22,642 bases of DNA, from IMG/VR virus record IMGVR_UViG_3300046787_000457, positions 1-22,642 of that record; one strand, given 5' to 3'. The notes under the pieces were generated by a model that saw only the letters and a program-made list of their open reading frames with translations, was not told the DNA's origin and made no database searches. Below are positions 7,228 to 10,149 of the stretch, one piece after another (position 1 is the stretch's first letter; each line of letters begins with the position of its first letter). The stretch is from a virus. The position numbers were made by a program, and so were the translations under genes.

Positions 7228-7878
7228 TTAGAACGGAATTTCGTCATCATCTTCAGGAGTGGATTCAACCTTAGCACGAGCTTTTGGTTTAGCTTCAGCT
7301 TTTGCTGCAGGTTTAGTTTTTGGAGCTTCTGCAACTTCTGCTTCATCATCAAATTCACTACCAGCTTCATATCCTGAACCTTCTTCTTGCACATATTCAA
7401 TCATGTCAGTGACTAGAACGTTCTTGAGATAGAAAGAAGTTGTACCATTGGTGCGTTCAAACTTATCAATACTGATTGAACCGTAAGAACCATTTGCAGG
7501 TAGTTTGCTGTTGGTAACATCAACTAGTGCTTTACCGACTTTCTCAAAGACTTTCGGCTTGTACAAATCAGGAACAGGTTTACCAGTTTTACCTAGCTCT
7601 GTGCTCTTGCGCAAAGTTACAACCCAAATGTTCTTACCTGCATCTTGTGGAGGTGCTACTCTATAGATGCCTTCAAACTCAGCAGTCTTGACTTTCTTGA
7701 TTGAAGTCTTGGCATCAACCTTTTTAGCAAACTCTTCGTACTCATCTAGAACATCTTCATCTGTAATTGCTACAGAAGCTTTCCATTCATCTGGCTTTGT
7801 TGGCTCTCCCGGTTTAACATAAGCTTTTTGAGGCTTGTTTAGTGACACATAGAGAAGCATACCTGTTAGTTTTTGCAT
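7228..7878 (-). CDS. ssb: single-stranded DNA-binding protein
   Basis: 216 residues. The N-terminal ~165 residues are a beta-rich OB-fold-like domain (KLTGMLLYVSLNKPQKA, WKASVAIT, IWVVTLRKS, YGSISIDKFER). A low-complexity linker rich in A, K, E and P follows (APKTKPAAKAEAKPKARAK), and then the acidic tip PEDDDEIPF. That tip is nearly the universal bacterial SSB tail (DDDIPF) that docks partner enzymes. The domain is longer than bacterial SSB and is of the phage type. SD AAAGGA six bases upstream; led by the strongest promoter of the window (7942-7970). Confidence 0.88.
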   Translation of the reverse strand: MQKLTGMLLYVSLNKPQKAYVKPGEPTKPDEWKASVAITDEDVLDEYEEFAKKVDAKTSIKKVKTAEFEGIYRVAPPQDAGKNIWVVTLRKSTELGKTGKPVPDLYKPKVFEKVGKALVDVTNSKLPANGSYGSISIDKFERTNGTTSFYLKNVLVTDMIEYVQEEGSGYEAGSEFDDEAEVAEAPKTKPAAKAEAKPKARAKVESTPEDDDEIPF

Positions 7879-7989: not shown

Positions 7990-8065
7990 TGGTGCGACAG
8001 GAGAGAATTGAACTCCCGACCAAGGCTTTATGAGAACCCTGCTCTAACCACTGAGCTACTGTCGC
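7990..8065 (-). tRNA. tRNA with CAU anticodon, probably tRNA-Ile2
   Basis: 76 bases with encoded CCA. Acceptor GCGACAG pairs perfectly with CTGTCGC, D-stem GCTC/GAGC, anticodon loop CTCATAA, T-loop TTCAATT. A CAT anticodon can mean Met or Ile2 (lysidine-modified, reads AUA). The D-loop (AGTGGTTAGAGCAGG) and the TTGGTCG variable region match E. coli ileX as I recall it much better than metT, and the acceptor lacks initiator features, so Ile2 is favoured. It would need host TilS. It follows the end of the 105-aa paralogue by 6 bases and is probably processed from that transcript. Confidence 0.92.
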
Positions 8066-8071
8066 TTGTTC

Positions 8072-8389
8072 TTATTCGTAAACAGTAATTGTTTTCTCTT
8101 TTGGTTCTACAAAAACATATCCTCTGTATTCTGAACCGACATGACTTGCATACCAACCGTAGAATTTAACAAAGACTTTTTCATTGTCTTTGCCGAATGA
8201 ATACACAGCCCAGTATTCTGAACACATGTCTTCACCACCATAACTATCTACTTGTTTTATATTAATCAATGCAGCATCAAAAAACTCTTGTATTTTATCA
8301 CCATACATGAAACAACCATCCATCATGCATTCTTTATCATGATCGGATAACTTATCAATTATACTTGCTAAAGTTTCTTTAAGCGTCAT
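8072..8389 (-). CDS. tandem paralogue A, unknown function (105 aa)
   Basis: First of three adjacent related genes. The C-terminal domain (~residues 46-105) reads DSYGGEDMCSEYWAVYSF, then VFVKFYGWYASHVGSEY and VEPKEKTITVYE. The signature is Y-G-G-E-D ... S-x-Y-W-x-V-Y-x-F ... F-x-G-W-Y-A-S-x-x-G-x-x-Y ... V-x-P-x-E-K-T-I-T-V-x-E, an aromatic-rich beta domain I have met in phages and plasmids without a known function. The N-terminus is a short helical region. The frame is open to 8413, but ATG 8389 has AAGGAG five bases upstream and is chosen. It ends six bases before the CAU tRNA. Confidence 0.8.
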   Translation of the reverse strand: MTLKETLASIIDKLSDHDKECMMDGCFMYGDKIQEFFDAALINIKQVDSYGGEDMCSEYWAVYSFGKDNEKVFVKFYGWYASHVGSEYRGYVFVEPKEKTITVYE

Positions 8390-8399
8390 ATCTACTCCT

Positions 8400-8747
8400 T
8401 TATTTCTTTTCAAACACAGTGATGGTTTTCTCTACAGGTTGTACCTCATAGAATTCTTGATAAGTAGAACCCTCATAAGAAGCATACCAACCTTGGAATT
8501 GAATGAACACAACTTCCATACCGTCTGTAAATGAATATACAGACCAGTAATCAGAACCTTGATCTTCACCACCGTAACGATCTACTTCTTCAAAAGCAAT
8601 ACCTGCATTTAAAAGTACATTACGAAATTCTGTGATTTCTTCTGAATCCCAATCCCAAGCTTTAACTTGAAATTCACAATTGAAGAAGTCACTGAGTACA
8701 CTATTTTCAGCTTCAGCAAGCAAAGCTACAACTTTATCTTTTAACAT
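8400..8747 (-). CDS. tandem paralogue B, unknown function (115 aa)
   Basis: Shares with its neighbour the full C-terminal domain: DRYGGEDQGSDYWSVYSF, VVFIQFQGWYASYEGSTY, VEKTITVFEKK. DNA identity is also high in places (8563-8586 against 8229-8252, 22 of 24 bases), indicating a fairly recent duplication. The N-terminal ~45 residues differ (acidic, NCEFQVKAWDWDSEE). The TTG at 8762 is in frame but has no SD; ATG 8747 follows AAAGGA by six bases. Function unknown; the conserved aromatic surface suggests ligand, nucleic acid or protein binding. Confidence 0.8.
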   Translation of the reverse strand: MLKDKVVALLAEAENSVLSDFFNCEFQVKAWDWDSEEITEFRNVLLNAGIAFEEVDRYGGEDQGSDYWSVYSFTDGMEVVFIQFQGWYASYEGSTYQEFYEVQPVEKTITVFEKK

Positions 8748-8758
8748 ATTATTTCCTT

Positions 8759-9256
8759 TCAAGGGTTATAAGCATTAAACACAGTACCAGTTACTTGTTT
8801 TGGCTTTACAAAATAGAAGTTACTATACTCGTTACCATTATACGATGAATATTGGCAATTGATCTGAACGTAACCAACAATTTCTTTACCTTCAAGGACT
8901 TCAAAGATTGTATATACAGGGTACTCAGTCAAGTTGTAACTCTCAATATCAAATACACTTTCATTGTAAAGAGAGCTATCGAAGGTAGATGAATTGTATT
9001 TAACACTTAGATTAACTTCACGCAAGCAATCGTTGATTTTATCTACAACGTGACTTTCTGGTTCACGACCACGCATGTAACTATTAATATCAAGCTTACT
9101 ACCGCTTAATTTAAGATACTTCTCAAACGCATTCTTGAAGCGTTTATTCCAAGGTAATGCATTTTGAAGTTGCTTAATCTTTTCTGCAGCTTCTTTTTCG
9201 ATCTGAGCAATCTGCTGCTCTACTGTCAGTTCTACTACAGCTTTAGTTCGTGCCAT
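8759..9256 (-). CDS. tandem paralogue C, divergent, with coiled-coil N-terminus (165 aa)
   Basis: The most divergent member. The N-terminus is helical (LTVEQQIAQIEKEAAEKIKQLQ, a likely coiled coil). The middle contains a basic stretch (NKRFKNAFEKYLKLSGSK). The C-terminus (~110-165) repeats the family frame: ESYNLTEYPVYTIFEV, VGYVQINCQYSSYNGNEYS and FYFVKPKQVTGTVF, lacking the G-G-E-D motif. SD AAGGA about 8 bases before ATG, inside the end of the nucleotidyltransferase-like gene, which overlaps by 14 bases. It probably shares an ancestral role with its two neighbours but has a different partner-binding end. Confidence 0.78.
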   Translation of the reverse strand: MARTKAVVELTVEQQIAQIEKEAAEKIKQLQNALPWNKRFKNAFEKYLKLSGSKLDINSYMRGREPESHVVDKINDCLREVNLSVKYNSSTFDSSLYNESVFDIESYNLTEYPVYTIFEVLEGKEIVGYVQINCQYSSYNGNEYSNFYFVKPKQVTGTVFNAYNP

Positions 9257-10061
9257 GTTCTAGTTCCTTTCTGATGTTGTCAAATTTTATTGTATCACAC
9301 AAATTGAAGATTTCAGGATAATTATCTATCGCAAAATCTCTAAACCAACCACTGCACAATGTAGTACATACTTTATCAAGTGCTTTAAGATAAGCATGTC
9401 TTGGTGCATAGTTCCAGTTACTTGGTACTAGAAAACGCTCAATTGCAATTACTTGTGCTTCCTCAGCTACGCACTTCATTTTATCATCAGTTGATAACTT
9501 ATCCCACAAATCTTTGTCACACCATGCACTACTTGGATTGCGTTGAAGCTGAGTATACAACGGTTTATCGTGATACGCAACAAGTTCATGCAAATAATCA
9601 TGATTGTATTTCTTCTCTACATAGTCATCAAAGAAGTCTTTAACTGACTTTTTCAAGCTTGGATGACCTTGTGGGTAAGCTGCCATAGTTAGCTTTGTCC
9701 TGTTCTCAAGAATAAGTTCGTCAACTTCTGTAAACCCTGCACGATACTTTGCAAGATACTTATGATAGTGCGTAATGTGCTTTTGAAAGCTTAGATCACG
9801 CCACAGATGACTACGTTTGATAATCGCTAGTCCAATTGGAGTAACGATATGCACACGTTGACCTGCAATATCAATGTATTCATCGGATGCATAACGCTGA
9901 AGATCAGAGCTACCTAGTGCATTAAAAGAATGCCATTCAATGCGTTTGGTATCATCAACAATTTCACGCAAGCTAATAATGTCCCAATCAGCATCAGGTT
10001 TGCACTTGAAGTCAGGACTCCAGTATTCCAATGCACGAGAACCAATCAGTAGATTTTTCAT
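9243..10061 (-). CDS. nucleotidyltransferase-fold protein (DUF7275-like)
   Basis: 272 residues. The N-terminus carries the polymerase-beta-like nucleotidyltransferase signature: LLIGSRALEYW (G7-S8), then DADWDII with D25-x-D27; a third acid may be in EYIDIAGQRVHIVTP (~62-76). The rest is helical (HITHYHKYLAKYR, KKSVKDFFDDYVEKKYNHD). I associate the GSRALxxWxPDF...DWD start with a phage DUF of minimal nucleotidyltransferases with unknown targets. It could transfer NMP to a protein or RNA, or be inactive. It lies directly behind tRNA-Arg on the same transcript, so an RNA target is conceivable. SD AAGGAG four bases before ATG. Confidence 0.7.
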   Translation of the reverse strand: MKNLLIGSRALEYWSPDFKCKPDADWDIISLREIVDDTKRIEWHSFNALGSSDLQRYASDEYIDIAGQRVHIVTPIGLAIIKRSHLWRDLSFQKHITHYHKYLAKYRAGFTEVDELILENRTKLTMAAYPQGHPSLKKSVKDFFDDYVEKKYNHDYLHELVAYHDKPLYTQLQRNPSSAWCDKDLWDKLSTDDKMKCVAEEAQVIAIERFLVPSNWNYAPRHAYLKALDKVCTTLCSGWFRDFAIDNYPEIFNLCDTIKFDNIRKELEHGTN

Positions 10062-10074
10062 ATTACTCCTTATT

Positions 10075-10149
10075 TGGTACGGCTAGATGGAATCGAACCA
10101 CCATTCACAGGGTAGAAACCTGTTGCATTGTCCATTATACTATAGCCGT
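10075..10149 (-). tRNA. tRNA-Arg (UCU anticodon)
   Basis: 75 bases with encoded CCA. Acceptor ACGGCTA/TAGCCGT, D-stem GTAT/ATGC, anticodon stem ACAGG/CCTGT with loop TTTCTAC (anticodon TCT, reads AGA), T-stem GGTGG/CCATC with one G-T pair, T-loop TTCGATT. Preceded by a sigma-70-like promoter and followed 14 bases later by the nucleotidyltransferase-like gene. Supplies decoding of AGA, rare in many gammaproteobacterial hosts. Confidence 0.93.

Follow-up and report, generated by a model that had tools for sequence, protein, structure and literature searches.

The locus

The window, that is, the whole stretch of DNA analysed here, comprises 22,642 nucleotides (positions 1 to 22,642 of IMG/VR virus record IMGVR_UViG_3300046787_000457). 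Three overlapping ORFs are present on the minus strand at 8072-9256, where the initial annotation had placed three adjacent genes. With starts at ATGs preceded by ribosome-binding sites, they encode proteins of 105, 115 and 165 amino acids, P0001, P0002 and P0003. The domain of these small proteins is termed "GWY", a label coined in this analysis. Lacking from the initial annotation is the gene upstream of P0003, for a nucleotidyltransferase (NTase)-like enzyme, and it is this gene that defines the unit. The features of the cassette and its borders are:

10075-10149, minus strand: tRNA-Arg(TCT), bordering the cassette upstream in the window's phage group
9243-10061, minus strand: NTase-like enzyme gene (272 aa), N-terminal DUF7277 and helical DUF7275; first gene of the cassette
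8759-9256, minus strand: P0003 (165 aa), divergent paralogue that has the GWY domain but no GGE loop and carries a coiled-coil-like stretch at the N-terminus; its start overlaps the NTase stop
8400-8747, minus strand: P0002 (115 aa), canonical GWY-domain protein, with a phrog_8206 match and an AlphaFold2 model
8072-8389, minus strand: P0001 (105 aa), paralogue with the GWY domain, a helical part that is shorter at the N-terminus, and a phrog_8206 match
7990-8065, minus strand: tRNA-Met(CAT), bordering the cassette downstream in the window's phage group

A single-stranded DNA-binding protein resembling Gp2.5, whose acidic C-terminal tail ends in DDDEIPF, is encoded at 7228-7878 and adjoins the cassette in the window's phage group. 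The tRNA-Met(CAT) and tRNA-Arg(TCT) genes stay beside the cassette and change sides or order among loci L078, L092, L103, L120 and L121, as if moving as units. The tRNA-Pyl(CTA) of 99 bases predicted by ARAGORN in Curvibacter phage P26059A (L003:2496-2594) is probably a false call; the same length recurs in L115.

Relatedness of the three small proteins

P0001 and P0002 share 51% identity over 78 amino acids (E 2e-24). The block of DNA identity first noticed between two of the genes, 22 of 24 bases, proved exact; the best blocks in 20 shuffles reached 16-19. P0003 is related to the other two in profile and sequence comparison (E 2e-8), and an HMM built without any P0003-type sequence recovers it at E 1.3e-6 and a P0003 orthologue at 2.3e-9. 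Orthologues of P0003 are found at four loci, with 71-90% identity. The initial annotation described one signature common to all three proteins. P0003 does belong to the family, but it does not carry the whole signature: only the remnant YSSYNGNEY...VKPK..TGTVF is present, and YGGED and GWYAS are missing. Likewise P0002 (E 2.6e-14) and P0001 (E 5e-9) match phrog_8206, while P0003 has no match to it in the profile search and is linked to the GWY family through the other comparisons only. All 74 members of the GWY-domain alignment match phrog_8206 and 60 of them match phrog_18295.

The N-termini had been thought unrelated. Profiles of the N-termini in the P0001 and P0002 groups are collinear over their full length (E 2e-4, with an HHalign probability of only 44%), and because they align end to end these two N-termini are probably homologous, so that for this pair the first impression was probably wrong. 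It stands for P0003, whose N-terminus has no detectable match to those of P0001 and P0002 in profile comparison, and which has the extra coiled-coil-like stretch that had been described.

The GWY domain

AlphaFold2 predicts P0002 with a pLDDT of 96.4 and a pTM of 0.86. The model consists of three helices followed by a four-strand meander (strands 51-58, 66-74, 79-89 and 93-102), with the GGExxG loop (residues 59-65, in the YGGEDQG motif) and the GWYASYxG turn (90-92) at the same end of the sheet. Residues G59, G60, E61, G86, Y88 and S90 are invariant in the GWY alignment (74/74), and G64 and G93 are conserved in 73 of 74 sequences. As loop and turn share a sheet end in the predicted topology, the invariant residues should form one patch.

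The P0002 model has five matches at E up to 0.001 in a viral structure library, including proteins of DSS3_VP1 and Gordonia phage OneUp. Foldseek comparison of the P0002 and fusion models (see below) with the PDB gave no match at E up to 0.001, and PDB sequence searches with P0002 and with the NTase returned nothing significant. An NTF2/cystatin-like fold was considered for P0002 and set aside, the curved-sheet matches being weak (Z 4.9 or less). Because the PDB matches are weak, we do not assign the GWY domain to any known fold family.

The nucleotidyltransferase-like enzyme

The protein encoded at 9243-10061 matches Pfam DUF7275 with an E-value of 9.2e-61 (205 bits, cut-off 27) and DUF7277 with an E-value of 1.5e-5, the latter at 26.0 bits, slightly below the 27-bit cut-off. 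Among 15 members of the family searched at E up to 1, all match DUF7275 and 14 match DUF7277, with a best E-value of 5e-28 for the latter; none of the 15 matches the DUF1814/AbiEii family. The NTase likewise has no match to the MNT, HEPN, CCA-adding or RlaP Pfam families. A detectable relative is present in 717 phage records. T4 NrdC.11, which is annotated as a nucleotidyltransferase, was considered as a relative and gave no match at the level tested. Our literature search found no paper naming DUF7275 and none on phage NTase anti-defence; M-cluster mycobacteriophages have been noted to encode aminoglycoside nucleotidyltransferase-like proteins (PMC12363180).

The N-terminus of the protein, GSRALEYW...DADWD, has the GS...DxD motif of Pol-beta-type nucleotidyltransferases. 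In an alignment of 50 NTase sequences G7, D25 and D27 are invariant, and S8 and K82 are each conserved in 49. The candidate partner of K82, position 98, is H, D or another residue in this alignment, in a comparison at the level of sequence with K137 and D152, the catalytic lysine and aspartate of MenT1. The NTase part of the fusion model finds its best PDB matches in MenT1 (Z 7.4 over 117 residues, 4.1 A), MenAT1 (8an5, 6.9), 5uvd (5.7) and 2ewr (4.8). The four best fold matches of the fusion model overall all fall on its NTase part, and all are NTases, with Z of 4.8-7.4; the Z of 7.4 to MenT1 lies in the range where the tool warns of a mere common arrangement, and a Z below 8 is no proof alone. 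Taken together, the GS...DxD motif and the fold match support assignment of the protein to the Pol-beta-type nucleotidyltransferase superfamily. Within the helical DUF7275 part H154-D155-x-x-H158, E200-E201 and E208-R209 are invariant in the 50 sequences, and these HDxxH, EE and ER motifs look like a second, possibly metal-binding or metal-dependent, active site.

Linkage of the NTase and GWY genes

Linkage was examined from both sides. A search of IMG/VR with the NTase only, followed by a scan of neighboring genes, gave 48 distinct loci, of which 2 were truncated. In 43 of the 46 assessable loci one to three GWY genes lie immediately downstream of the NTase, and three loci were scored as having none. 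One of these (L095) shows a downstream GGEDQG..GWYASHYG frame that ambiguous bases or a change of frame interrupt; in another (L112) the GWY genes are 1.6 kb off; and the third (L114) is a scoring artefact, the script having chosen a fusion ORF, and the second NTase copy of this locus has its own GWY gene. The reciprocal scan, led by GWY and blind to the NTase, gave 61 distinct loci, 59 of which have an NTase within the fetched stretch. The distance was at most 100 bp in 54 of the 61 and at most 700 bp in 56; three NTases were further off and two loci had none nearby. Both genomes of the last kind encode an NTase elsewhere.

The fusion is a natural one from a metagenomic virus (L114:133-1281), a single ORF of 382 amino acids that carries both domains, the NTase profile scoring 269 bits on residues 1-262 and the GWY profile 107 bits on residues 270-381. 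It was modelled with a pLDDT of 94.0 and a pTM of 0.77, a pTM that leaves the domain interface unsettled; the alignment behind the model includes in-frame read-through rows of adjacent NTase-GWY gene pairs. The same contig carries, at L114:133-4967, an apparent tandem cassette in which the NTase-GWY fusion, tRNAs and an SSB-like gene are followed by an NTase, a separate GWY gene, tRNA-Met and an SSB-like gene. Either a genuine duplication or the assembly itself could account for this.

The linkage was seen in phages of Limnohabitans, Curvibacter, Gordonia, Mycobacterium, Streptomyces, Pseudoalteromonas and Vibrio. Vibrio phage nt-1 has the opposite order: there GWY lies upstream of the NTase and is recognized at E 1.2e-5 by an HMM not built from nt-1. 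Cassette neighbors vary by lineage and include polB/exonuclease, terminase/tRNAs, WhiB/DnaQ and MazG/thymidylate synthase. With the patterns used, 84,980 bacterial and archaeal genomes yielded only five hits (two Mycolicibacterium, a Nocardia, a Sphingomonadales MAG and an Ekhidna MAG), all five with GWY matches downstream; the GWY frame on the Sphingomonadales contig is short. The NTase-GWY unit is carried by phages from at least three bacterial phyla.

NTases without a GWY partner

Five T4-like or related phages encode a long-form NTase of 313-319 amino acids and no GWY protein genome-wide. These NTases (L041, L042, L043, L045 and L046) are about 45 residues longer than the others, with the extra stretch between the DxD and KxSH motifs. 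T4 itself has neither the NTase nor the GWY family. The NTase family can therefore work without GWY. GWY without an NTase was found in no genome tested, and since NTases occur without GWY and never the reverse, GWY appears to depend on the NTase and not the NTase on GWY, the orphan side of this comparison being a small sample.

Copy number and evolution of the GWY genes

GWY copies per cassette range from one to four among 77 distinct cassettes, contigs cut at their ends included: one in 30, two in 32, three in 11 and four in 4. When copies were classed by simple sequence patterns, a canonical GGE copy was scored in 73 of the 77 cassettes, and 47 of the 143 GWY copies were scored as non-canonical; extra copies often lack the GGE loop. 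Of the four cassettes scored without a canonical copy, two (L098 and L222) are cut or short, and one (L008, phage BillNye) is a scoring miss, its last GWY copy having GGEGQG, which an overly strict turn pattern overlooked. The fourth (L223) is apparently a real exception.

The copy number is thus variable, as the initial annotation anticipated, and relatives do not always carry the window's three genes with the same N-termini. In Limnohabitans phage DC31, the closest sequenced relative (84% identity over the region), only the P2 gene is present and the P1 and P3 segments are cleanly absent. The N-termini also vary as proposed, drifting much faster than the C-terminal domain: among 13 P0002 orthologues mean identity is 45% over residues 1-55 and 87% over residues 56-115, with the same direction in all 78 pairs, which are not independent of one another. 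Given the change in copy number and the fast N-terminal drift, the suggestion of a single binding module that serves several purposes is reasonable. Rapid duplication in the recent past of the window's clade does not fit the data. In a tree of the GWY domain, a short domain analysed without formal support tests, the P1, P2 and P3 proteins of this clade form separate groups, indicating old, stable orthologous groups, and apparent later duplications fall in other lineages, such as L205, L191, L035 and L129.

Function of the cassette

The adjacent NTase gene is the constant feature of these cassettes, which argues that the GWY proteins are enzyme partners rather than free-standing decoys. Because phages of at least three phyla pair the two genes, once as a fusion, the GWY proteins are very probably dedicated partners of the NTase. 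That reading rests on the linkage, the one fusion, the near-universal canonical copy, the frozen C-terminus with its drifting N-terminus, and the retained catalytic residues of the NTase. We favor, with moderate confidence, the view that P0001, P0002 and P0003 are paralogous partner subunits of the NTase encoded at 9243-10061 and that together they form one phage operon.

The sequences and models are best read as small proteins that would dock on the NTase and regulate or target it. The conserved end of the GWY domain, with the GGExxG loop and GxYxSYxG turn, may be the part that docks, and the N-terminus, which is variable, helical or coiled-coil, and has been multiplied through duplication, would determine the timing or the target of NTase action. 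The enzyme would add a nucleotide either to the end of an RNA, possibly a tRNA, or to a protein. Such a pair would work like MenA-MenT or an MNT-type pair, the small protein and the NTase acting on each other, in a module carried by the phage with several alternative partners. A tRNA is suggested as substrate by the resemblance to MenT1, the bordering tRNA-Arg and tRNA-Met genes and the tRNA clusters of the Gordonia phages, and is a guess. A bolder proposal, which we hold to be unlikely, is that the cassette represents a new two-component class of phage enzyme, in which several interchangeable, fast-evolving partners would redirect one NTase to different host RNAs or proteins during infection.

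The same pairing might represent a phage toxin-antitoxin-like system, an account to which we assign a small but real probability. Here the NTase would block translation, for instance through changes to tRNA 3' ends, the canonical GWY protein would neutralise it, and the extra paralogues would neutralise related NTases of the host or of rival phages. The best match of the NTase part is indeed to MenT1, a tRNA-modifying toxin (PMC10435456); the adjoining gene is small, with overlapping ends; one canonical copy is kept almost always; and in the genomes tested GWY never occurs without the NTase, while the reverse does occur. However, long-form NTases are maintained as orphans in phages that have no GWY gene. 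Unlike ordinary toxin-antitoxin systems, the module hardly ever occurs on bacterial chromosomes (the patterns used found 5 loci in 84,980 species), and the AbiEii/DUF1814 Pfam family is not matched.

We see a rather slim chance that the enzyme acts in tRNA end repair or maturation, restoring or modifying tRNA 3' ends during infection while the GWY proteins aid RNA binding. Repair NTases, RlaP and CCA-adding enzymes among them, are known from phages (PMC7824862). Across most of the clade to which the window belongs, tRNA-Arg(TCT) and tRNA-Met(CAT) border the cassette, switching sides yet staying adjacent, and in Gordonia phages tRNA genes come after it. This association does not extend to L125-L129, most of L188-L206 or the T4-like loci, where no tRNA lies within ~3 kb; moreover, the window's tRNA-Met, as judged by eye, encodes its own CCA end, and the CCA-adding and RlaP Pfam families are not matched.

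The initial annotation proposed decoy or counter-defence proteins, which would stand alone and use their variable N-termini to bind host defence factors. Fast N-terminal drift and changing copy number would suit such proteins, but tight linkage and fusion to an enzyme would be unexpected of them and no convincing match to any defence model was obtained, so we regard the idea as very unlikely. Passive synteny, with the genes adjacent only through shared phage ancestry, has a negligible probability: one freshwater phage group makes up much of the sample, but the linkage recurs with different neighbors in Gordonia, Mycobacterium, Streptomyces, Vibrio and Pseudoalteromonas phages and on a Bacteroidota contig, with one reversal, and the fusion together with conserved pairing in differing gene contexts largely refutes this explanation.

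Comparison with known systems

Several toxin-antitoxin and defence systems are built around an NTase under the control of a small partner. The partner reading favored here finds its nearest likeness in MenAT1/AbiE (MenT1, PDB 8an4 and 8an5), which has in common with the cassette the NTase fold, the DxD motif, a conserved lysine (putatively K82 in the phage enzyme) and a small neighboring partner. The phage NTase differs in having no DUF1814 match and in its helical DUF7275 with invariant HDxxH, EE and ER; its partner, GWY, comes in one to four copies, and the pair is phage-borne and known here from sequence and model only. MenT1 is under the control of MenA1, a small non-kinase protein (PMC10435456, PMC11375011), which acts through repositioning of an active-site residue (PMC11375011); a small non-kinase protein can therefore control an NTase of this type. 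The HEPN-MNT (type VII) toxin-antitoxin systems also place a small NTase beside a partner gene, but the phage enzyme has no MNT or HEPN Pfam match and the predicted core of its GWY partner is a four-strand sheet. Phage RNA-repair NTases (RlaP and the CCA-adding enzyme) resemble it in being phage-encoded and, in some lineages, near tRNA genes; they differ in that neither family is matched.

Both halves of the cassette fall into families already listed. The NTase gene is a member of Pfam DUF7275/DUF7277 (phrog_2141 and phrog_6944), described only as domains of unknown function, and the GWY proteins match phrog_8206 and phrog_18295, which carry no function and whose listing is silent on a link to the NTase. 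What is new is that NTase and GWY recur as one unit, with a fusion in one case and partners that multiply. Two phage gene families that lacked an assigned function are thereby joined into one testable module, and a phage-borne NTase that has several partners could shed light on phage manipulation of host tRNA or defence enzymes.
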